Source of the DNA: an uncultured Subdoligranulum sp.
Lineage (GTDB): Bacteria > Bacillota > Clostridia > Oscillospirales > Ruminococcaceae
DNA: 34,000 bases
Assembly: GCA_904390925.1 (NCBI GenBank)
Contig: CAJFMB010000026.1
Coordinates: forward strand, 1 to 34,000
Direction of reading: 5' to 3'
A model generated the notes under the pieces. The model was not told the DNA's origin. It saw only the letters and a list, made by a program, of their open reading frames with translations, and did no database searches. Within the stretch, counting starts at the first letter, position 1. Each line of letters begins with the position of its first letter. Positions 24,000 to 33,911 of this stretch are shown one piece after another. The position numbers and the translations under genes are program-made.

Positions 24000-24073
24000 C
24001 GGGAGGGCGTCGCCTTGCCGGCGGCGGATTTTGCATACAGGGAAATCTGACAAGAGGGGAGAGGTCATCTGCC

Positions 24074-25462
24074 ATGAGGTTACGCAGCACCATCTGCGCG
24101 CTGGCGACGCCGCCGGGCGAAGGCGGCATTGCCGTGGTGCGCCTGTCGGGGCCGGACGCCTACGCCATCGGGGCAAAGGTGTTTGTGCCCATCCACAAAG
24201 GGAAATCGGTTCTGAACGCCCGGGGATACACCGCGCTGTTCGGGCATTATCTGCTGGACGGCCAGGAGATGGACGAGACAGTGGCGCTGTTTTACCGCGC
24301 CCCCCACAGCTACACCGGCGAGGATGTGATCGAGCTGTCGGTGCATGGCGGCAGCGCCATGGCGGACGGATTGCAGCAGGCGCTGATTGCCGCAGGCGCG
24401 GTGCCGGCGGCGCCGGGAGAGTTCACCCGCCGCGCGCTGGAAAACGGGCGCATGAGTCTGACCCAGGCCGAGGCGGTGATGGAGATCATCTCGGCGGGAA
24501 GCCGGCAGGGAGCAGCGCTGGCCAAGCGGGCGCTGGACGGGCGTCTGGCCCGGGAGGCGGAGGGCATTCGCAAAACCCTGCAATCGCTGGCAGCGCATCT
24601 GACCGCCTGGATTGATTACCCGGAGGAGGACGTGCCCGAGCTGGCCCCCGCCGAGCTGAAGGAGACTTTACAGCAGCAGAAAACCCTGCTGGACGGCTGG
24701 GTGGACAGCTACAACGCCGGGGCGGTCCTCCGCCACGGGGTGGACTGCGTGCTGCTGGGCCGGCCCAACGTGGGCAAGAGCACGCTGTTGAATCTGCTGG
24801 CCGGTTTTGACCGGGCGATTGTGACGCCGGTGGCGGGCACCACCCGGGACGTGGTGGAGCAGGCGGTGCAGCTGGGGGAGATCCGGCTGAACCTGTTTGA
24901 CACGGCCGGGGTCCGGGGCGAGGAGGAGGCCGACGCCATTGAGGCGGAGGGCATCCGCCGCAGCTGGAAAAAGCTGGAGGAGGCCGGGCTGGTGCTGGCG
25001 GTGTTTGACGCCGGCGCCCCGGTGACCGACGCCGACATCGAGATTGCCCGCCGGTGCGAGGGCCGCCCGGCGCTGGCCATCTTCAACAAGCAGGACCTGG
25101 CGGCCGACGGCAGCCAGTTTGACGAGAGTCTTTTGACCCCCTATTTCCGCAACGTGATCCGGCTGTGTGCCCGGGACGCCGACAGTCTGGCACCGCTGAC
25201 CCGGGCGGTGGCAGCGCTTCTGGGCACGGCAAAGCTGGACCCCAACGCGGCGGGGCTGATCAACCAGCGGCAGCTGGCGGCCGCCACCGCCGCCCGGGAT
25301 GCGGTGGGCGAGGCCATCGCCGCGGTGGATGCGGGCTTTGGCCTGGATGCCGCAGGCGTCTGCATCGAGGATGCGCTGCGGGCATTGGCTGACCTGACCG
25401 GCGAGGACGCCACCGAGGCGGTGATCGACGAGGTATTTTCCACCTTCTGCGTGGGCAAGTAA
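24074..25462 (+). CDS. mnmE: tRNA modification GTPase MnmE
   Basis: MnmE, with MnmG, installs the (carboxymethyl)aminomethyl group at C5 of wobble uridine in tRNAs reading NNA/NNG codons, using a folate one-carbon unit and GTP. The 462-residue product is full length: N-terminal folate-binding domain (TICALATPPGEGGIAVVRLSG, about 1-120), helical domain, and an inserted G domain with G1 GRPNVGKS (229-236), G3 DTAG (276-279) and G4 NKQD (338-341). It ends in the catalytic FCVGK (Cys459). The ATG at 24074 has GAGGAGAGG-type spacing upstream. The usual upstream partners yidC and jag are absent. Its partner mnmG is 1.3 kb downstream, beyond a DUF3592 gene and a repeat block. Confidence 0.97.
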   Translation: MRLRSTICALATPPGEGGIAVVRLSGPDAYAIGAKVFVPIHKGKSVLNARGYTALFGHYLLDGQEMDETVALFYRAPHSYTGEDVIELSVHGGSAMADGLQQALIAAGAVPAAPGEFTRRALENGRMSLTQAEAVMEIISAGSRQGAALAKRALDGRLAREAEGIRKTLQSLAAHLTAWIDYPEEDVPELAPAELKETLQQQKTLLDGWVDSYNAGAVLRHGVDCVLLGRPNVGKSTLLNLLAGFDRAIVTPVAGTTRDVVEQAVQLGEIRLNLFDTAGVRGEEEADAIEAEGIRRSWKKLEEAGLVLAVFDAGAPVTDADIEIARRCEGRPALAIFNKQDLAADGSQFDESLLTPYFRNVIRLCARDADSLAPLTRAVAALLGTAKLDPNAAGLINQRQLAAATAARDAVGEAIAAVDAGFGLDAAGVCIEDALRALADLTGEDATEAVIDEVFSTFCVGK

Positions 25463-25948: not shown

Positions 25949-26003
25949 ACCTTGGGGTTCCGGAGTTTGCGGTTCTGTTTTGCCGGCTGCCGGCCGGTTT
26001 CTT

Positions 26004-26030
26004 CTTCCTTTTTGGGAGCCAAAAAGGAAG
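26004..26030 (+). repeat. Outer hairpin of the repeat block, copy 1
   Basis: Perfect 12-bp arms CTTCCTTTTTGG and its complement around GAG. It lies 56 bases after the DUF3592 stop. Near-identical hairpins occur at 28799-28823 and 33829-33856, each about 60-85 bases before a hairpin-ended repeat element. Confidence 0.8.
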
Positions 26031-26087
26031 TGAAAAATCTTTTTGAAGTATCTCGCTTGATTTTTTTAGCGGCAGCTGCCGCAGGGT

Positions 26088-26498
26088 CTTACTTCTTTCG
26101 TCACCGAAAGAAGTAAGCAAGAAAGGTGCCACCGTTTCGACGCGGTGGACGCCGACCAGGGAGCTAAGCCCCCTGGACCCCGCACTGCGGAACACTTACC
26201 GGGTGTTACCCCCACCGGCTTCTACCCGGCCCACCCTGCGGGCCGGGGGTATATGCCTTACCGCTGCGGCAAAAGGAACTTGATCGGGCCAACACCTGCA
26301 AAGAAAAGGTACAGCTTTACCGCAGTTGCTGTCGAACGTTTCACCCGGCCTGCAAGGTAAGGCCGGGAGCAGACGGGAGTGGGATGGCCTGCCGTCTATC
26401 GATGGCGGGGGTCTTGGGGGTAAGGCCCCCAAGTCGTCGTCCACCCGTTCGAAAGGGTGGCGCCTTTCTTGGTTCTTCTTTCGGCGACGAAAGAAGAA
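26088..26498 (+). repeat. Hairpin-ended repeat element, full copy A (411 bp)
   Basis: It begins with a perfect 13-bp hairpin (26088-26100 with 26105-26117, loop TCAC) and ends with an 11-bp hairpin (26473-26483 with 26488-26498, loop GCGA). The first and last ~65 bases are inverted copies of each other (by hand, about 55 of 65 positions agree). The interior is a chain of short stems: CCCGGCCC/GGGCCGGG, CCCGGCC/GGCCGGG, CTTGGGGG/CCCCCAAG, CCACCC/GGGTGG. Copy B is nearly identical at both ends and more variable inside. No credible gene is seen within. The 797-base gap 25949-26745 consists of this element, outer hairpins and about 175 bases of other sequence including a hairpin at 26558-26576. 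Confidence 0.85.
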
Positions 26499-26524
26499 GA
26501 ATAACCTCCCGGCAAGCTGCCGGA
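26498..26524 (+). repeat. 27-base repeat with CCGGCAAGCTGCCGG hairpin, copy 1
   Basis: It begins AGAATAAC and contains an inverted repeat around AAG. It abuts the right end of element A. The same word, with small changes, occurs at 29284-29310 and 29334-29360. Confidence 0.75.
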
Positions 26525-26672
26525 CATCTTCCGCCGAAAGCGTGTGCCTTCTTTCCTCATCGCCTTTTCGGCGATGTAAAACAGAGGAACAGCCCCGCTG
26601 TCGCTCGGGCCGGCAAGCTCCCGGCTGGCAGCCGGAACAATAGAAACCATCAGCTAAACCAAACTTTCTTGT

Positions 26673-26695
26673 TTCTTCTTTCCGCGAAAGAAGAA
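26673..26695 (+). repeat. Solo end-hairpin upstream of mnmG
   Basis: TTCTTCTTTC and its complement form 10-bp arms around CGC. The preceding CTTTCTTG matches the sequence next to the right-end hairpin of the full elements, so this looks like a right-end fragment. It ends 50 bases before the mnmG start. Confidence 0.7.
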
Positions 26696-26745
26696 TATCT
26701 CAACAGACACTTTTGTTTCGTACAGTATTGAAAGGACGAATCGTT

Positions 26746-28626
26746 TTGATCGACCATCTTGGCAGCTACGACGTAATTGTAATCGGTGCCGGCCATGCCG
26801 GCATCGAAGCCGCCCATGCGGCGGCAACGCTGGGCGCAAAGACCGCCGTCTTTACACTGACGCTGGACTTTATCGGCAACATGCCCTGCAACCCCTCCAT
26901 CGGCGGCACCGCCAAGGGCCATCTGGTGCGGGAGATCGACGCCCTGGGCGGCCTGATGGGCATTGCCGCCGACGCCACCTTTCTGCAAAGCCGGATGCTC
27001 AACCGGGGCAAGGGTCCCGCGGTGCACAGTCTGCGGGTGCAGACCGACCGCAAGCGCTACCATATCTACATGAAGCATGCGCTGGAGCTGACCCCCAACC
27101 TGGACATTCACCAGGCCGAGATCGTGGGTCTGGAAGTCCGGGACGGCCACGTCACCGGCGTCTACACCAACCTGAACGGTTACTATGCCTGCAAGTGTGT
27201 GGTCATTGCCACCGGCACCACCCTGGGCGGCCGCATCTTTGTGGGCGAGGCCCACTATGCCGGCGGCCCCGACGGCCAGCACGCCGCCACCCGCCTGACC
27301 GAGGATCTGGTGGCAAAGGGGTTTCCGCTGCGCCGGTTCAAGACCGGAACCCCCGCCCGGGTGCATCGCCGCAGCATCGACTTCTCCAAGCTGGAACGCC
27401 AGCCCGGCGACCCGGACGAGAGTCTGCAGCCCTTCAGCTTTCTCACCCGCACCCCGATGCACAACAAGGTGGACTGCTACATCGCCTACACCAATCCCGA
27501 GACCCACAAGGTGATTCTCGACAATCTGGACCGGTCGCCCCTCTACGGCGGCGAGATCCAGGGGGTAGGACCCCGCTACTGCCCTTCCATTGAGGATAAG
27601 GTGGTCCGCTTCAAGGACAAGCAGCGCCACCCGGTGTTCGTGGAGCCCTGCGGCGAGGACACCGAGGAGATGTATCTGCAGGGGTTGTCCTCCAGTCTGC
27701 CGGAGGCGGTGCAGAACGCCATGTACCACACCATCGTGGGCTTTGAGCATCTGGAGATCATGCGTCCCGCCTACGCCATCGAGTATGACTGCGTTGACCC
27801 CACCAGTCTGTATCCCACGCTGGAAAGCAAGGTGGTGGCGGGCGTCTATGGCGCCGGGCAGTTCAACGGCACCTCCGGCTACGAGGAGGCCGCCGCCCAG
27901 GGGCTGCTGGCGGGGCTGAACGCCGCCCGCCATGCGCTGGGCAAATCCGAGCTGGTACTGGCCCGGCACACCAGTTACCTGGGCACGCTGGTGGATGACC
28001 TGGTGACCAAGGGGGTCATGGACCCCTACCGGATGATGACCAGCCGCAGCGAATACCGGCTGAGTCTGCGCCAGGACAACGCCGACGAGCGGCTGACCCC
28101 CATTGGCCGGGAATACGGCCTGGTGGACGACGTCCGCTGGGCGCAGTTCTGCCGGGACCGGGACATCAAGCAAGCGGAACTGGACCGGCTGGCCCGCACC
28201 AGGGTGAAGCTGGCCGACCTGCGGCAGGCAGCAGGGGAGGGGGCCGTGGTGGGCGAGACCGGCGGCACTGCCGAGGAGCTGCTGCGCCGGCCCGGCATCC
28301 GGTACGAGAGCATCGCCCGGGTGATCGGCTGGGGCGAGGGCGTCACCCCCACCATGGCGCTGCGCATTGAGACCGAGATCCGCTACGCCGGCTACATTGC
28401 CCGGGAACAGCGGGTGATCCGGGAGATCCAGCGCCACGAGAATGTGGCGATCCCGGCCGATTTTGACTATGCGCCGCTGACCACCCTGACGCTGGAAGCC
28501 CGGGAAAAGCTGGCCCGCATCCGGCCCCGGACCCTGGCACAGGCGGGGCGGATTCCCGGCGTGTCGCCCAGCGATGTTTCCCAGCTTTCGCTGGCTTTGC
28601 TGAAAGCCAACCGAAAGGATTCCTGA
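26746..28626 (+). CDS. mnmG: tRNA uridine-5-carboxymethylaminomethyl modification enzyme MnmG
   Basis: MnmG is the FAD-dependent partner of MnmE in wobble-uridine modification. The 626-residue product is full length: an FAD-binding Rossmann motif (VIVIGAGHAGIEAA, 10-23), GNMPCNPSIGGTAKGHL with the conserved cysteine, TGTTLGG, TPMHNKVDCYI, and the C-terminal helical MnmE-binding region ending near ISxSDVSQLSLAL-type sequence. The start chosen is TTG at 26746, nine bases after AAAGGA; no ATG is available, and the in-frame TTG at 26713 lacks a site. A hairpin (26673-26695) lies in its leader, and another (28627-28649) starts right after the stop codon. Confidence 0.96.
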   Translation: MIDHLGSYDVIVIGAGHAGIEAAHAAATLGAKTAVFTLTLDFIGNMPCNPSIGGTAKGHLVREIDALGGLMGIAADATFLQSRMLNRGKGPAVHSLRVQTDRKRYHIYMKHALELTPNLDIHQAEIVGLEVRDGHVTGVYTNLNGYYACKCVVIATGTTLGGRIFVGEAHYAGGPDGQHAATRLTEDLVAKGFPLRRFKTGTPARVHRRSIDFSKLERQPGDPDESLQPFSFLTRTPMHNKVDCYIAYTNPETHKVILDNLDRSPLYGGEIQGVGPRYCPSIEDKVVRFKDKQRHPVFVEPCGEDTEEMYLQGLSSSLPEAVQNAMYHTIVGFEHLEIMRPAYAIEYDCVDPTSLYPTLESKVVAGVYGAGQFNGTSGYEEAAAQGLLAGLNAARHALGKSELVLARHTSYLGTLVDDLVTKGVMDPYRMMTSRSEYRLSLRQDNADERLTPIGREYGLVDDVRWAQFCRDRDIKQAELDRLARTRVKLADLRQAAGEGAVVGETGGTAEELLRRPGIRYESIARVIGWGEGVTPTMALRIETEIRYAGYIAREQRVIREIQRHENVAIPADFDYAPLTTLTLEAREKLARIRPRTLAQAGRIPGVSPSDVSQLSLALLKANRKDS

Positions 28627-28649
28627 TTCTTCTTTCGCAGAAAGAAGAA
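28627..28649 (+). repeat. Solo end-hairpin directly after mnmG
   Basis: TTCTTCTTTC and its complement pair around GCA, beginning one base after the mnmG stop. The following AACCAAGAAA matches the right terminal repeat in inverted orientation, so this is an end fragment of the element. There is no T-run, so termination is doubtful. Confidence 0.7.
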
Positions 28650-28714
28650 CCAAGAAAACAGCGTAAAAAGTGCCACCGTTGGGGTGGGACTTTTTACGGC
28701 ATCCTGCCAGGGGG

Positions 28715-28762
28715 CTTACTTCTTTCATCACTGAAAGAAGTAAGCAAGAAAGGTGCCACCGG
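28715..28762 (+). repeat. Solo left end of the repeat element (fragment D)
   Basis: It has the left-end hairpin (28715-28727 with 28732-28744, loop TCAC) and the following CAAGAAAGGTGCCACCG, then diverges. Compared with copies A, B and C, one closing G-C pair is replaced by A-T on both arms, a compensatory change. About 40 bases before it, TTTTTACGGC and a GC hairpin match the sequence before copy C. Confidence 0.75.
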
Positions 28763-28798
28763 CAAATTGGATGAACGGCATCCGATCGTTGTCTATGT

Positions 28799-28823
28799 TT
28801 CCTTTTGAGTGACCAAAAAGGAA
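28799..28823 (+). repeat. Outer hairpin of the repeat block, copy 2
   Basis: TTCCTTTT pairs with AAAAGGAA, a slightly decayed version of the hairpins at 26004-26030 and 33829-33856. It lies 56 bases before element B. Confidence 0.65.
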
Positions 28824-28878
28824 CCGAAAAAGTCGCTACCGTTAAGGCTGGATTTTTTACGGCGGGCCGCCGTGGGGC

Positions 28879-29287
28879 CTTACTTCTTTCGTCACCGAAA
28901 GAAGTAAGCAAGAAAGGTGCCACCGTTTCGACGCGGTGGACGCCGACCAGGGAGCAGGGCCCCCTGGACCCCGCACTGCGGGAAACTTGCTCATGTCACC
29001 CCAACACCTTCTACCCGGCCCACCCTGCGGGCCGGGGGGTATACGCCTTACCGCTGCGGCAAAAGAAACTTGATCGGGCAAGTATCGGTAAAGAAAACGT
29101 ATTACCTTGCCGCAGGCAGCAGCAACGTTTCACCCGGCCTGCAAGGTAAGGCCGGGAGCAGGTGGTGGTGGGATAGCCTGCCGTTTATCGGTGGCGGGGG
29201 ACTTGGGGGTAAGGCCCCCAAGTCGTCGTCCACCCGTTCGAAAGGGTGGCGCCTTTCTTGGTTCTTCTTTCGGCGACGAAAGAAGAA
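28879..29287 (+). repeat. Hairpin-ended repeat element, full copy B (409 bp)
   Basis: It has the same architecture and orientation as copy A: a 13-bp hairpin at the left end, an 11-bp hairpin at the right end, inverted ~65-bp termini, and GC-rich stems between. The first ~75 and last ~90 bases are almost identical to copy A. The middle differs mainly in loops and in one segment (about 28980-29010). It fills much of the 872-base gap between mnmG and rsmG (28627-29498). The rest of that gap is fragments of the same family plus the 27-base repeats; no convincing gene is present. Confidence 0.85.
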
Positions 29288-29360
29288 TAACTCCCCGGCA
29301 GTCTGCCGGAGATAGAGAAACTGCCCACAAAAAAGAATAACTCCCCGGCAAGCTGCCGGA
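29284..29360 (+). repeat. 27-base repeat, copies 2 and 3
   Basis: Two copies (29284-29310 and 29334-29360) of the AGAATAAC...CCGGCA-GCTGCCGG word are spaced 50 bases apart. The first abuts the right end of element B, as copy 1 abuts element A. Confidence 0.75.
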
Positions 29361-29395
29361 CAAACCAAATAGCAGCAACCCGAAAAAACTTTTTG

Positions 29396-29421
29396 TTTCT
29401 TTTTGGTTTCCCAAAAAGAAA
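29396..29421 (+). repeat. Outer hairpin on the right side of the repeat block
   Basis: TTTCTTTTTGG and its complement form 11-bp arms around TTTC. It mirrors the TTCCTTTTTGG hairpins on the left of the elements, so the block is symmetric outside the terminal repeats too. Confidence 0.65.
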
Positions 29422-29459
29422 AGAAGGAGGGCGGCCTGACGCCGCCAAAAATCTTTGCC

Positions 29460-29481
29460 ACTCTTTCGATTCCGAAAGAGT
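29460..29481 (+). promoter_or_regulatory. Hairpin abutting the rsmG ribosome binding site
   Basis: ACTCTTTCG and its complement pair around ATTC; GCCACCGG follows, as in the left end of the repeat element. The stem ends six bases before GGAGGT of rsmG, so it may affect initiation or protect the 5' end of the message. Confidence 0.6.
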
Positions 29482-29498
29482 GCCACCGGAGGTACCCA

Positions 29499-30203
29499 AT
29501 GATTGACAAAACCCGTCTTGCTGAAAAATGTTCCACGTGGAACATCCAACTTTCCGGCAGTCAGCTTGACCTGCTGGACCGGTACGCCCGGATTCTGGTG
29601 GACTACAACCAGAAGGTCAACCTGACCGCCATCACCACCCCCGAGGGCATCGAGGACCGCCACTTTGCCGACAGCCTGCTGTTCGCCGCCCAGCCGGAGG
29701 TATCCGGCCGGATGGTGGACGTGGGCACCGGCGCAGGGTTTCCCGGCGTGGTGGCCAAGATCTTCAAGCCGGAGCTGGAACTGACCCTGATGGAACCCAC
29801 CGGCAAGCGGGTGGAGTTTCTCAAATACCTCTGCGGTGAGCTGGGTCTGACCGGCATCGAGTTTGCCAAGGAGCGGGCCGAGGAGGCCGCCCGCAAAGTC
29901 TGGCGGGAACAGTTCGACGTGGCCAGCGCCCGGGCGGTGGCCGCCCTGCCGGTGCTGTGCGAATACTGTCTGCCGCTGGTCAAGGTGGGCGGCGTCTTTG
30001 TGGCGATGAAAGGCCCCGACGCCCCCGAGGAACTGGCCGCCTCCGGCAACGCCCTGAAAAAGCTGGGCGGCAAGGCCGTCGAGACCCGGCAGTTCACCCT
30101 GCCCGACGGCAGCGCCCGCTGCCTGGTGCTGGTGAAGAAAATATCGCAGACTCCGCCCGCTTATCCCAGAAACGGCGGAAAAATTGCAAAAAAGCCCCTG
30201 TAA
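29499..30203 (+). CDS. rsmG: 16S rRNA (guanine527-N7)-methyltransferase RsmG
   Basis: RsmG (GidB) methylates N7 of G527 in the 530 loop of 16S rRNA. The 234-residue product has the expected length. ILVDYNQKVNLTAIT (32-46) and RHFADSLL (54-61) are family signatures; MVDVGTGAGFPGVVAKI (72-88) is the SAM-binding loop; ARAVAALPVLCEYCLPL follows. The ATG at 29499 is six bases after GGAGGT. Codons 11-15 (CSTWN) contain a perfect parS palindrome, so this stretch serves both coding and partition. It is followed by a terminator, so noc is transcribed separately. Confidence 0.96.
   Translation: MIDKTRLAEKCSTWNIQLSGSQLDLLDRYARILVDYNQKVNLTAITTPEGIEDRHFADSLLFAAQPEVSGRMVDVGTGAGFPGVVAKIFKPELELTLMEPTGKRVEFLKYLCGELGLTGIEFAKERAEEAARKVWREQFDVASARAVAALPVLCEYCLPLVKVGGVFVAMKGPDAPEELAASGNALKKLGGKAVETRQFTLPDGSARCLVLVKKISQTPPAYPRNGGKIAKKPL
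29529..29544. other. parS site inside rsmG
   Basis: TGTTCCACGTGGAACA is a perfect 16-base palindrome matching the bacterial parS consensus (TGTTtCACGTGaAACA) with one symmetric C/G substitution. ParB family proteins nucleate here. Confidence 0.93.
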
Positions 30204-30212
30204 GGGCATCGA

Positions 30213-30251
30213 TTCGCCGCAGTTTGTCCCGAACTGCGGCGAACGATTTTT
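30213..30251 (+). terminator. Intrinsic terminator of rsmG
   Basis: A 12-bp stem (30213-30224 with 30232-30243) with a seven-base loop is followed by CGATTTTTC. Confidence 0.82.
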
Positions 30252-30272
30252 CTGGCGGCGGTTCTTTGGCTG

Positions 30273-30281
30273 TGGTATGCT
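30273..30281 (+). promoter_or_regulatory. Possible extended -10 promoter of the noc-like gene
   Basis: TGG precedes TATGCT (30276-30281). No convincing -35 box. It would give a leader of about 150 bases with no other feature seen. Confidence 0.4.
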
Positions 30282-30435
30282 TTTTTGTGTAGAAACACGC
30301 AGCACAGGCAGCCCGGAACCTCCGGCCCGCCCGGTTTTTCCCTTTTGTCACTATGCCGCCCGCGCCGCGTTTTGTGTTCTGGCACAACCGGTGCGGGCGG
30401 ATTTTTTGTCCGTCCCCGGAAAGGGAGGTACGCCC

Positions 30436-31596
30436 ATGATCGAAAAACAGAAACCCGGCAAGGTGCTGATGCTGCCGGTGGACGCCATCGAGCCGTCCCC
30501 CTGGCAGGCCCGCACCGCCTTTGACGAGACCGAGATCGCCGCTTTGGCGGTGAGCATTCTGCAAAACGGCCTGCTGCAGCCCATCAGCGTGCGGCGGGTG
30601 GGGCTGCGCAAATACCAGCTGATTGCCGGGGAGCGCCGGCTGCGGGCCTGCAAACTGGCCAAGCTGGAAAAGGTACCCGCGATTCTGGCCGACTGGACCG
30701 ACAGCGAGAGCGCCGCGCTGGGACTTTTGGAGAACATCCAGCGCAGCCAGCTGGACCCCTTCGACACCGCCCGGGGCATCCGGGACGTGATCCGGCTGTG
30801 GGGCTGCACCCAGGCCGAGGCCGCCCGCCGTCTGGGGCTCAGCCAGCCCGCCCTGGCCAACAAGCTGCGGCTGCTCAGCCTGACCGCCGCCCAGCAGCAG
30901 ATCTGTACCTCCCACCACCTGACCGAGCGCCATGCCCGGGCGGTGCTTCGCCTGCCGGAGGGCCGCCGCACCGCCGCGCTGGAAAAGATTGCCCGGGACG
31001 GGCTGAGCGTGCGGGAAACCGACAAGCTGGTGGAAACCATGCTCACCGCCGCGCCGGGCACGCCGTCGCCCTGCCGCAAGACCACCCCCATGGTGCGGGA
31101 CGTGCGGCTGTTCATCAACACCCTGCAGCACGCGGTGGACCTGATGACCCAGAAGGGGATTCCCGCCACCACCACCTGCGGGCGCCGGGACGGATGTCTG
31201 GAATATGTGGTGCGCATCCCGGTGGAGAGCGCCGACACCAGCCAGCCGCTGCCCCAGGCCTCGCTGGACAACGCCCCGGCTGTCCCGGCCCCCAGGCCGG
31301 AACCCCCGGCCGGGCCGGTGGATGACCCGATGGCCGACACGCTGCCTGACGATTCCGGGCAGGGGACCGACTCCCGGTTGCCTGACGAGGACCCGCGGCA
31401 GATCCTGGGAAGCGCCGCCCACGCGCCGGTGATGCCGCCGCCCGCCAGCATGCCCCCGGCCATCGAGACCATCGCCCGGGCGGACAGCGCTTGTGCCGCC
31501 CCCGCCACCATCCCGGTGGTGCGTGTGGTCTCCGCCCGGCCGGAGCCGCCGGAACCGGACGGTGCCACCGTCGCCTCGCTGACCCGGCAAGGCTGA
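30436..31596 (+). CDS. noc: ParB/Noc-family DNA-binding protein (probable nucleoid occlusion protein)
   Basis: The protein has the ParB N-terminal CTPase/clamp domain with GERRLRA (65-71) and ENIQRSQLDPFDTA (99-112), and a central helix-turn-helix (CTQAEAARRLGLSQPALANKLRLLSL, about 124-149). Its place between rsmG and parA is that of noc in Bacillus, while a canonical parB is expected after parA, outside the window. Noc binds its own sites and blocks septation over the nucleoid. At 386 residues it is about 100 longer than usual: residues 265-386 are a Pro/Ala/Asp-rich disordered tail. The N-terminal membrane-targeting helix of Bacillus Noc is not evident. It could instead be a second ParB. 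ATG 30436 has GGGAGGT upstream. Confidence 0.8.
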   Translation: MIEKQKPGKVLMLPVDAIEPSPWQARTAFDETEIAALAVSILQNGLLQPISVRRVGLRKYQLIAGERRLRACKLAKLEKVPAILADWTDSESAALGLLENIQRSQLDPFDTARGIRDVIRLWGCTQAEAARRLGLSQPALANKLRLLSLTAAQQQICTSHHLTERHARAVLRLPEGRRTAALEKIARDGLSVRETDKLVETMLTAAPGTPSPCRKTTPMVRDVRLFINTLQHAVDLMTQKGIPATTTCGRRDGCLEYVVRIPVESADTSQPLPQASLDNAPAVPAPRPEPPAGPVDDPMADTLPDDSGQGTDSRLPDEDPRQILGSAAHAPVMPPPASMPPAIETIARADSACAAPATIPVVRVVSARPEPPEPDGATVASLTRQG

Positions 31597-31666: not shown

Positions 31667-32725
31667 TCAGCCTGCGATGGATGCCGCCAGCCGTGTGTAG
31701 ACCGTCACCGCGTCCTCCAGATGCAGCGTCTCGCTGTGGTTGTCGCCGGGGGCACCCGCCGTCACCAGAATGTACTCGCTGTCGCCGCACCGGGCCAGCG
31801 ACGCCAGGCAAAGCCCTGCCTCGTCGGTAAACCCGGTCTTGCCGCCCAGCAGCTCCACCCCCGCCGGTTGGGTGTCGGTCAGACCGTCGAACATCGAGCT
31901 GGTCAGCGTGATGCCGTCGGGGTGCAGGTTGGTGGGCGGGACAAAATACTGTCGGGTGGTAAAGACGGTGCGGAAAGTATCATTGTCCAGCGCCGCATCC
32001 AGCAGCCTGGCCAGGTCCGCCACCGTGGACTGGTGCTGCGGGTCCTGCAGGCCGGTGACATTGCAGAAATGGGTGCCGTCCATGCCCAGCTCGGCGGCGC
32101 GGGCGTTCATCCGGGCGACAAACTCCTGTTCGGTGTCGCAGACCTGCCGGGCCAGCGCCGAACAGCACTCGGCGCCGGAGGGCAGCAGCGCCCCGTACAG
32201 CAGATCCCGCACCGTCACTGTCTCGCCGGGCTGAAACCCCGCCATTGAGGCGTTGGCCTCCCACAGCGGGGGATAGAGGTCCTCCGCCATTGTCACCTGG
32301 GCGTCCAGGTCGGTCAGCGTCTCGGCGGCCAGCAGTACCGTCATCATCTTGGTCAGCGACGCGGGGTAGATGGGATCGTCCGCCCCGACCTCTCCCAGGA
32401 CCGGACCGCCCCGCCGGAGCAGGATGGCGTGGGGGCTGTTCAGGCCGGTCATGTCCACCGGTTCCGGCGTGGGCGCCGCGGTGGGGGAGGTGACCGGCCG
32501 GGTCAGGATTGCACCCGACCCTTGCAGCGATTTGCCCACCCAGATCCCCAGCGGCAGAAAGACCGCCAGTGCCAGAAGAAAGCTGACCAGGAACCGGGTC
32601 ATGGCCTGGCCGGGGGTATCCCGGCGCCGGCGGCGGACCGGGCGGCGGCCGGGATAGCGGGACCGACCCTGGCCAGGGTGTCGGGCGTTGCGGGGAAGGG
32701 GACGGCGGACAGGTTGTCGGGACAT
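31667..32725 (-). CDS. D-alanyl-D-alanine carboxypeptidase (S11 family)
   Basis: The 352-residue penicillin-binding-type enzyme trims the terminal D-alanine from peptidoglycan stem peptides. A strongly basic cytoplasmic N-terminus (1-42, RRxRRRR) precedes one membrane segment (45-65), then an extracellular catalytic domain. SLTK (123-126) carries the nucleophile Ser123 and Lys126, and KTG (296-298) is intact. The second motif, usually SGN, reads SGA (183-185), so the Asn is missing. The beta-rich C-terminal domain of DacA/DacF is absent or very short. The ATG at 32725 has AAAGGAG ten bases upstream. It is divergent from parA, with a parS between them. Confidence 0.88.
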   Translation of the reverse strand: MSRQPVRRPLPRNARHPGQGRSRYPGRRPVRRRRRDTPGQAMTRFLVSFLLALAVFLPLGIWVGKSLQGSGAILTRPVTSPTAAPTPEPVDMTGLNSPHAILLRRGGPVLGEVGADDPIYPASLTKMMTVLLAAETLTDLDAQVTMAEDLYPPLWEANASMAGFQPGETVTVRDLLYGALLPSGAECCSALARQVCDTEQEFVARMNARAAELGMDGTHFCNVTGLQDPQHQSTVADLARLLDAALDNDTFRTVFTTRQYFVPPTNLHPDGITLTSSMFDGLTDTQPAGVELLGGKTGFTDEAGLCLASLARCGDSEYILVTAGAPGDNHSETLHLEDAVTVYTRLAASIAG

Positions 32726-32833
32726 GGGGCAGAGACTCCTTTGTTTTGGAATGCTTCCAGTGTAGCAGCTTTGGCTGAAAAAATCCTTGAGAAAACCTTG
32801 CAAATTGCCGGATGCGTTTTGTTTGCCGGCAAA

Positions 32834-32849
32834 TGTTCCACGTGGAACA
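32834..32849. other. parS site upstream of parA
   Basis: The 16-base palindrome is identical to the one in rsmG. Here the symmetry extends five more bases on each side (32829-32854). It lies about 100 bases upstream of the parA -10 box, so ParB spreading could affect parA expression. Confidence 0.95.
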
Positions 32850-32949
32850 TTTGCACACCCATGGCAGCGAAAATGCCCCGGTTTCGGTGCTGCAAAACCG
32901 GGAAAAACGCCAAAAATGCGGTTTTTGCCTTTTTCTTGTGCCTGTGCTG

Positions 32950-32958
32950 TGCTATAAT
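32950..32958 (+). promoter_or_regulatory. Extended -10 promoter of parA
   Basis: TGC precedes a perfect TATAAT (32953-32958). The -35 region is a T-rich stretch without a clear TTGACA. The leader is about 70 bases. Confidence 0.65.
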
Positions 32959-33037
32959 GGTTACATTGAGCGCCAAAAACGGGATTTTTTTGAAAATTCC
33001 GGCGCGATTTTTCAAAAACACAGGAGGGGCAGGCAGT

Positions 33038-33805
33038 ATGGCCAAAGTCATTGCGGTGGCAAACCAGAAGGGCGGTGTGGGCAAGACGACAACTGTGGTA
33101 AACTTGTCGTCCTGCATCGCCTCGCTGGGCAAACGGGTGCTGGTGGTGGATCTGGACCCCCAGGGCAACACCACGTCCGGATACGGCGTGGCCAAGCACA
33201 CGCTGGAAAACGGCGTCTACCCCTGTCTGCTGGGGGAGGAGGATGTGCGGCAGGCCATCGTCAAGACCAAGTTCAATGCCGATCTGCTGCCCTCCAACAC
33301 CGAGCTGGCCGGCGCCGGCATCGAGCTGGTCAGCATGCCCCGCCGCGAAAACCGGCTGCGGATGGCACTGGCCCCGGCCACCGAGCTGTACGATTATATC
33401 TTCATTGATTGCCCACCCTCGCTGGACCTGCTGACCCTGAACGGCCTGTGTGCCTGCGACACGGTGCTGATCCCGATCCAGTGTGAGTACTACGCGCTGG
33501 AGGGCTTGTCCGAGCTGATGGCCACCCTGAAGATGGTGCGCAAAAAGTACAACCATTATCTGGACATTGAGGGCGTGGTCTTTACCATGTACGCCGGGCG
33601 GCTGAACCTGACCATGCAGGTGGTGGCCCAGGTGAAAAAGTATTACGGCAACAAGGTGTACAAGAGTGTGATTCCCCGCACGGTACGCTTGTCGGAGGCG
33701 CCCAGCTTTGGCATGCCCATCAATTTCTACGAACCCAACGGGAAGGGGTGCGAGGCCTATATGGGCCTCGCCAGAGAGTTTTTGGCAGCCAACGAACGGG
33801 ATTGA
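33038..33805 (+). CDS. parA: Chromosome partitioning ATPase ParA (Soj)
   Basis: ParA/Soj is the ATPase that works with ParB bound to parS in origin segregation and regulates replication initiation. The 255-residue product has the deviant Walker A KGGVGKTT (11-18) with the signature Lys11, the A' motif DLDPQGN (38-44) and Walker B YIFIDCPPSLD. The short N-terminus without a helix-turn-helix is the chromosomal Soj type. The ATG at 33038 has AGGAGGGG upstream. A canonical parB would be expected next, but a hairpin block and a new copy of the repeat element follow to the window end. Confidence 0.96.
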   Translation: MAKVIAVANQKGGVGKTTTVVNLSSCIASLGKRVLVVDLDPQGNTTSGYGVAKHTLENGVYPCLLGEEDVRQAIVKTKFNADLLPSNTELAGAGIELVSMPRRENRLRMALAPATELYDYIFIDCPPSLDLLTLNGLCACDTVLIPIQCEYYALEGLSELMATLKMVRKKYNHYLDIEGVVFTMYAGRLNLTMQVVAQVKKYYGNKVYKSVIPRTVRLSEAPSFGMPINFYEPNGKGCEAYMGLAREFLAANERD

Positions 33806-33856
33806 CGGTTGGCAACAACCGTCGGGTTCTTCCTTTTTGGAAAACCAAAAAGGAAG
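33804..33856 (+). repeat. Paired hairpins after parA (outer hairpin copy 3)
   Basis: GACGGTTG/CAACCGTC (33804-33823) overlaps the last base of the parA stop codon. CTTCCTTTTTGG and its complement (33829-33840 with 33845-33856) follow. The second is the same outer hairpin as at 26004-26030. They may protect or terminate the parA message; there is no clear T-run. Confidence 0.7.
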
Positions 33857-33911
33857 CGATAAAAGTGTCACCGTTGAGGCGGGGACTTTTTACGGCATCC
33901 TGCCGTGGGGT

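Follow-up and report, generated by a model that had tools for sequence, protein, structure and literature searches.

Hairpin-ended inverted repeats around mnmG in Gemmiger: a candidate mobile palindrome whose end loops are complementary to their flanks

REPINs, the inverted doublets of repetitive extragenic palindromic (REP) sequences in REP-RAYT systems, are intergenic, non-autonomous palindromes that occur in many copies and fold as long hairpins, according to passages of PMC3116915 and PMC8266576. The ends of IS200/IS605 elements carry a subterminal hairpin and follow a short pairing rule between guide and site; such guiding by pairing is known for IS200/IS605 and has been proposed for REP sequences (parts of PMC6006769 and PMC8266576). 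Miniature inverted-repeat transposable elements (MITEs), as defined in a part of PMC3116915, are of similar size to the element described here, have inverted ends and lie as copies between genes, and BIME, ERIC and other enterobacterial palindromic repeats are named in a portion of PMC2267715. Here we describe a repeat of ~410 bp around the gene mnmG in a 34-kb window, which is a complete contig (C26) of genome G000, a metagenome-assembled genome (MAG) of Gemmiger (2.14 Mb in 100 contigs, estimated completeness 85%). The loop of its terminal hairpins is complementary to the adjoining 3' flank, and we give about even odds (0.5) to the reading that it is a mobile, REPIN-like palindrome recognised as a folded single strand by a trans-acting enzyme.

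A preliminary description of this window had proposed an unnamed repeat family with a hairpin at the start of each end, ends that are inverted relatives of each other and a variable, stem-rich middle, and all of these features hold. Copies A and B are full copies (Table 1), and the third, truncated where the contig stops, retains its left end only. The element consists of two inverted end modules of ~93 nt around a hairpin-rich middle of ~220 bp, and each end starts with a perfect hairpin, which in the left end of copy A has a 13-bp stem (S1) around TCAC. Inverted arms of 67 nt within one copy are 76% (copy A) and 75% (copy B) identical, with a further 22 nt at 95% in copy A. The predicted folds of the copies reach -240.5 (A) and -243 kcal/mol (B), and none of 100 dinucleotide shuffles of either folds as well. 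The end limits first given may not be the outermost ones; at copy B the inverted similarity runs on through one small hairpin on each side (28860-28904 with 29264-29308, 78%). Nor are the two copies around mnmG isolated, as further partial modules occupy the same intervals.

With copy B as the query, genome G000 yields copy A, 14 further places of 296-410 bases at 79-88% identity, and many end pieces, for a total of 72 matches including overlapping reverse-strand ones. The preliminary description had all copies in one orientation, which fails outside the window, where the copies of G000 lie in both. A covariance model of one end module (R1, 93 positions), built from 37 diverse ends that include both ends of copy A, finds all four ends of copies A and B and a total of 62 end matches in G000 at E<=0.01, of which 41 score more than 52 bits. 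As counted from the match list, 26 of these 41 strong matches are no more than ~450 bases away from a contig end, so the assembly probably breaks at the element, which may explain why this MAG falls into contigs. The ends form 15 left-right pairs in G000 (six complete within contigs, eight cut by a contig end and one interrupted), and inverted pairs are also present in other Gemmiger (L034, L035, L036, L040, L044, L045) and in genome G012. In the interrupted pair (C23, ~24070-24240; L016 ~1915-2035), a different repeat of the CCGGCCCGAGCG... / ...GGCGATGTAAAACAG type is inserted in the right end. Pieces similar to that repeat adjoin copy A at window positions ~26550-26645.

From the outside inwards, the end module comprises a first hairpin (HP1, with stem S1), an A-rich spacer, a GNN complementary to the HP1 loop, a second and a third hairpin (HP2 and HP3), and ACCCC. 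HP2 reads CCACCG TTTCGACG CGGTGG, and HP3 is present in Gemmiger and several other Clostridia. Standard pairs occupy 96.0% of cells in the 37 ends, and two-sided changes occur at 19 of 26 pairs. Cells with such changes number 143, against a mean of 37.4 in shuffled alignments (0 of 500 shuffles as high), and sliding the partners abolishes the pairing; a statistic of further pair types does not stand out, since 205 of 500 shuffles reach the observed value. An alignment of 98 matches (90 distinct), which was fitted to the structure and is biased towards it, gives 278 two-sided cells versus 65 when shuffled.

The loop and flank obey a rule of their own, in which the HP1 tetraloop TNNC has its complement in a GNN that lies a few nucleotides past the hairpin foot. 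This helix is kept in 90.5% of cells in the 37 ends. Its first pair is C-G in 23 ends, G-C in 13 and A-U in one; the second is A-U in 25, G-C in seven and C-G in three, with one unpaired and one gap; the fourth fails in 13 of the 37. We scanned contigs of named genomes with the open pattern TTTTGTNNCCAAAARN{2,11}AAAAGNNCC, in which both NN are free; it matches at least 119 stretches, and the counts that follow hold among the matches listed. There are 110 distinct matches, and 77 of them have at least three of four standard pairs outside the fixed stem. Both NN pairs are Watson-Crick in 69 of these 77, compared with a mean of 22.6 and a maximum of 36 in 2000 permutations of the partners. The remaining 33 matches, which have fewer than three of the four outer pairs, obey the NN rule in three cases, and those with four Watson-Crick outer pairs obey it in 63 of 64, the exception (L211) having G-T. 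Many matches come from a few Gemmiger genomes, and they reduce to 30 distinct cores with six NN types. Inverted loops (TGACGCCA versus TGGCGTCA) carry inverted partners (L185, L200, L226, L233), and the pairing is preserved while the letters change, both within and between phyla.

The spacer (L3) between S1 and its loop-complementary flank lengthens with S1 (rho 0.74, p 3.5e-6, 30 distinct cores). Stems of 9 bp have spacers of 5 nt in eight of nine cases, those of 10 bp have 5-6 nt, those of 11 bp have 6-7 nt in nine of ten cases and 4 nt in one, and those of 12 bp have 7-8 nt. Judged from sequence, this scaling would be what the three-dimensional fit of an H-type pseudoknot needs, and a loop that stays complementary to its 3' flank through changes is the mark of such a fold. 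This complementarity and the spread of the module outside the order both go beyond the preliminary description, and the rule makes the module searchable in gut bacteria and some Patescibacteria. In one Oscillospiraceae genome (G344:C53, L365), two modules lie 1.3 kb apart; the loop GCAG pairs with CTGC in one of them, whereas the other has a mismatched CCGC, so that the rule is naturally broken there.

The genes mnmG and rsmG overlap by 4-8 nt in 16 of 30 Gemmiger genomes, including G041, G016 and G008, in which MnmG is 91-92% identical to that of the window (95% in the sister genome G012). They are 872 bp apart in G000 and 859 bp apart in G012, a distance that is filled with modules, and the MnmG tail is shorter in these two genomes than in G041, G016 and G008. 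R1 modules occur around mnmG in seven of the 30 (G000, G012, G016, G008, G041, G005, G044), and upstream of the gene G016, G008 and G041 carry end modules at the place of the full copy in G000. We infer that the array was gained by insertion in an ancestor of G000 and G012; its loss with a restored gene overlap in the other genomes is unlikely. An alignment of 11 copies and their flanks from genome G173 (two were poorly placed by the aligner) shows three that share only a unit of ~95 nt, with unrelated upstream sequence. At two Gemmiger loci, L074 (G020) and L063 (G002), mnmG is directly followed by a gene whose HDIGN motif was read by eye; other congeners have the mnmG/rsmG overlap at this place.

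The dispersed copies, the inverted pairs, the gene overlap in 16 of 30 genomes, the covariation, the loop-flank pairing and the growth of the spacer with S1 argue for mobile DNA. One strand of the whole element would fold into a long branched hairpin, and recognition of the ends would take place on a folded single strand, most likely DNA left single-stranded during replication. The HP1 loop may act like the guide tetranucleotide of IS200/IS605 and REP, choosing the adjoining site by base pairing, and the cutting would be done by an enzyme acting in trans. The resemblance to IS200/IS605 ends has limits, since the guide there lies 5' to the hairpin foot, whereas the complementary bases of the element lie in the hairpin loop (parts of PMC6006769 and PMC8266576). 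In addition, no linked tnpA was recognised, with linkage unmeasured and tnpB not searched, and the Y1 domain is found in some carriers only. If the module is a mobile end, elements can label their termini in a way not seen before, and a recombinase yet to be found would serve them.

Three observations favour DNA over RNA as the recognised form. G-U pairs are nearly absent from S1 (0 of 290 cells in the 37 ends, 4 of 682 in the 98-match alignment), compared with four of 91 pairs in the acceptor stems of tRNAs, a sample of 13 tRNAs only from fetched DNA; this scarcity argues for a constraint on DNA or on both strands and is not proof. The G-rich strand carries 17 of 19 Patescibacteria modules (15 of 16 with a strict pattern), with some skews near zero, and net gene direction agrees with the module in 11 of 19. 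The third observation is the G173 unit with its unrelated flanks.

Several points weigh against a mobile palindrome recognised as a single strand. No enzyme was found for the element. Y1 transposases (PF01797) have no match in 11 of 19 carrier genomes, nor in the Gemmiger genomes G012, G016, G007, G022 and G024, these being drafts in which absence is not final. A search for a transposase with matching ends had been suggested; judged from end spacings, with the open reading frames between them left unannotated, no end pair encloses a recognised transposase gene. The mnmG/rsmG case is an array and not one clean insertion, the two genes are separated by 242, 1255 and 1113 bp in G013, G020 and G044 with one R1 module near mnmG in G044, and the start of rsmG was not recognised in nine of the 30 genomes. 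The 19 Patescibacteria modules come from seven genomes and are not independent, and no strand bias is seen in Gemmiger (18 versus 22 of 40) or among single modules of Clostridia and Bacteroidaceae (16 of 36 on the G-rich strand). A spacer that is rich in A and crosses S1 is a typical trait of RNA pseudoknots. Finally, R1 has 24 matches in G128, G068 and G058, 18 of which were recognised by a script finder, the other six being left out; 13 of these 18 begin 1-9 nt past the stop codon of a frame of at least 80 codons, in sense.

The latter placement hints at an RNA role, and a structured RNA, already offered as an alternative in the preliminary description, has gained support from the pseudoknot and is now the main rival, which we regard as possible, if rather doubtful. 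Working in transcripts, the module would be a pseudoknot between cistrons or in 3' untranslated regions with a role in protecting or regulating mRNA, and recombination or an older transposition would have spread it. Its H-type geometry, in which the A-rich spacer lengthens with S1, would suit such an RNA, as would the conserved HP2 loop (TTTCGA/TTCCGA) of the Gemmiger alignment and the internal motifs AACTCRC (11 of 14) and GYTCAAACA (10 of 14) of Patescibacteria-group modules. A Faecalibacterium module (L186) also begins 6 nt past a stop codon in sense. However, S1 nearly lacks G-U pairs, orientation is unbiased in Gemmiger and in Clostridia singles, and of six single modules folded as RNA, two give weak values (z -2.4 and -1.7), the other four ranging from -4.2 to -6.7. 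Signals of orientation are present, though they vary from lineage to lineage. One of the remaining five modules of G128, G068 and G058 overlaps a gene end and another lies 7 nt from a contig start. Among 69 modules without Gemmiger-type HP2 letters, a sense gene ends within 40 nt upstream in 12 and an antisense gene is there in three. Two of four Latescibacteria modules are on the G-rich strand, and so are 26 of the 37 loci that were counted beside the 40 of Gemmiger, Patescibacteria included (p 0.004). The script finder made 25 matches in 310 kb of carrier DNA against four in a shuffled copy, and a few false positives entered the strand counts of Patescibacteria, of Clostridia and Bacteroidaceae singles and of Latescibacteria.

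Database comparisons also bear on the RNA alternative. An intrinsic terminator was rejected, no T-tract following directly after HP3 in the modules inspected. No Rfam family matches at the gathering score in the window and in 17 loci, and 16 loci gave five tRNAs only, in agreement with the earlier view that no named family fits; at a lax threshold, positions 25949-29500 gave five weak, chance-like matches far under the cut-offs. H-type pseudoknot RNAs such as preQ1-I have a short second stem and an A-rich third loop across stem 1. Unlike preQ1-I, the element has an S1 of 9-13 bp, is a dispersed repeat and lacks an Rfam match. PMC8040213 describes candidate structured RNAs of palindromic form from human microbiomes, of which 230 in 250 are predicted to form terminators and 20 are not; its main text does not mention Gemmiger, Subdoligranulum or Faecalibacterium, and overlap with the element is possible via its supplements. 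If the module is an RNA, it represents a pseudoknot class without an Rfam entry in several phyla. Both the RNA and the mobile-DNA explanation can be tested with small compensatory mutants.

The preliminary description saw the anatomy of a MITE. What stands of this is a non-autonomous, hairpin-ended inverted-repeat element with dispersed copies, inverted ends and an insert-free junction in 16 of 30 genomes. A strictly defined MITE, whose long terminal inverted repeats a DDE transposase would bind as double-stranded DNA, is improbable. Terminal inverted repeats of ~93 nt, a length of ~410 bp, many copies and the presence of mnmG-rsmG modules in some congeners only would fit it. However, no target-site duplication is visible by eye at copies A and B, as the preliminary description had it, or around the ~95-nt unit of G173, the true ends being uncertain, no autonomous partner was recognised, and distant genomes carry single ends. 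The letters of the ends also vary while the pairing stays, conserving structure rather than sequence, which a sequence-specific binder of double strands would not allow.

Still less probable are immobile palindromes that were multiplied and homogenised by recombination, gene conversion and hairpin-templated replication errors. Such processes would account for perfect arms with two-sided changes and few intermediates, for stem swaps between copies, and for the tandem near-identical units downstream of mnmG in G012. They leave unexplained the loop-to-flank complementarity, including the inverted loops with inverted partners, and the G173 unit with unrelated flanks.

A proper REP/REPIN system with RAYT (TnpA-REP) is hardly credible despite its intergenic palindromes, singlets, inverted doublets and patchy distribution, since copies A and B have no GTAG, GTGG or CGTC tag 0-2 nt away on the 5' side of their left-end hairpin (GGGT and GGGC on the top strand, CTTG on the bottom), and the Y1 searches, which in G000 found one broken fragment, rule out REP/RAYT as the general mobiliser. 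The element works like a REPIN, with inverted doublets as the repeated unit, yet it is not one, for the copies checked lack the tag and many carriers show no Y1 gene. Its end modules of ~93 nt with three hairpins and loop-to-flank pairing, its doublets of ~410 bp and the sharing of the module among several phyla further set it apart from REPINs as the cited passages describe them. Y1-domain (RAYT-like) genes, most of them weak, are found at ~5-22 kb distance from mnmG in G006 (C39), G014 (C9), G017 (C62), G042 (C1) and G043 (C42).

The family is patchy, and its copies occur in more than one strain. With stricter filters, R1 matches eight of 291 genomes of the class at E<=1e-4, the window's own genome counted, including families far from that of the window; it has no match in one genome each of the same-family genera g18, g19 and g20. 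Carriers of the open pattern with a proper stem, among the matches listed, include Faecalibacterium prausnitzii APC923/61-1, several Oscillospiraceae MAGs, Bacteroidaceae RGIG7721 and Latescibacteria UBA6620, together with MAGs of Parcubacteria, Peregrinibacteria, Peribacteria, Magasanikbacteria and Gracilibacteria. The strict pattern, which is blind to the GAAAG type of the window, has 1 to 21 matches in 16 of 18 chosen genomes and none in G000 and G012, and the reversed pattern has none in all 18. It was found in one of 398 genomes of the window's phylum, a chance-like case (GG against GG), and in three of 145 genomes of a Patescibacteria sample, the centre genome counted. Copy B has no match in phages and one 89-nt relative none in plasmids; viral contigs gave no match to the first pattern, a weak absence given how strict the pattern is.

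We tentatively consider a mobile class across phyla, in which the loop would be a guide pairing with the adjoining cleavage or joining site and a non-Y1 enzyme family would act, in Clostridia, Bacteroidaceae, Latescibacteria and reduced Patescibacteria, with palindromic doublets in Gemmiger. Because the non-Gemmiger genomes examined carry single modules, the doublet looks like an elaboration within Gemmiger. The 14 Patescibacteria-group modules often have a longer stem after the head, and GGACCCC is common in them. A fold of ~125 nt is common to the Patescibacteria elements L177, L216, L243, L248, L266, L292, L277, L338 and L340, and consists of the pseudoknot head, a long compensating stem, the conserved AACTCRC and GYTCAAACA, and GGACCCC; it could be a separate RNA or mobile class. 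In G173 (C11, L132-L135), most modules lie inside larger mosaic repeats with hairpins of their own (GTCGACAAGGGGGTTGCCAAGGGGG...CCCCCTTGG). Repeats of the BIME and ERIC type form mosaic arrays of hairpins in intergenic space, and the Gemmiger arrays resemble them in this arrangement. No pseudoknot rule is known to have been reported for BIME or ERIC. Literature searches, whose reach excluded supplements and most subscription journals, found no description of a pseudoknot-ended module.

Table 1. Positions of element copies, end modules, small hairpins and genes in the window
Feature	Position	Strand	Evidence or remark
Copy A, whole element (left end, middle, right end)	26088-26498	+	89% to copy B; fold z -11.5; covariance-model matches
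Copy A, left end module	26088-26181	+	R1 103.5 bits
Copy A left end, S1	26088-26100/26105-26117
Copy A left end, loop TCAC	26101-26104
Copy A left end, spacer L3	26118-26125
Copy A left end, GTG	26126-26128		complementary to loop CAC
Copy A left end, HP2	26129-26148
Copy A left end, HP3	26156-26176		followed by ACCCC
Copy A, right end module, inverted	26408-26500	-	R1 101.6 bits
Copy B, whole element	28879-29287	+	89% to copy A; fold z -15.4
Copy B, left end module	28879-28972	+	R1 102.1 bits
Copy B, right end module, inverted	29197-29289	-	R1 99.0 bits
Third copy, left end only, cut by end of contig C26	33912-34000	+	92% identity; R1 90.8 bits
Small outer hairpin (GCGGCAGCTGCCGC) left of copy A	26069-26082	.	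read from sequence
Small outer hairpin (CCGGCAAGCTGCCGG) right of copy A	26509-26523	.	repeat comparison (family D10)
Small outer hairpin left of copy B	28860-28872	.	within inverted arm 28860-28904 (pair I5)
Small outer hairpin right of copy B	29296-29310	.	overlaps inverted arm 29264-29308 (pair I5, family D9)
Partial module: HP1 and flank, then a different stem (GGATGAACGGCATCC)	28715-28786	+	R1 33.9 bits
Degenerate module starting at mnmG stop codon	28625-28700	+	R1 22.8 bits, E 0.0043; weak
Degenerate module upstream of rsmG	29394-29473	+	R1 25.6 bits; weak
Partial module just left of third copy	33828-33901	+	R1 38.5 bits
Degenerate module upstream of mnmG	26615-26697	-	R1 24.5 bits; weak
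mnmE	24074-25462		Pfam
mnmG	26713-28626		Pfam
rsmG	29403-30203 (frame)		Pfam; ATG at 29499 read from sequence
parB	30184-31596		Pfam
ParA-type ATPase gene	32429-33805		Pfam

The 5' part of rsmG contains a perfect palindrome, TGTTCCACGTGGAACA (29529-29544), and a form of it (TGTTYCAYRTGGAACAT) was matched near the start of rsmG in 21 of 30 congeners. It resembles the consensus of a parS site, a likeness that fits the adjoining parB and parA genes.

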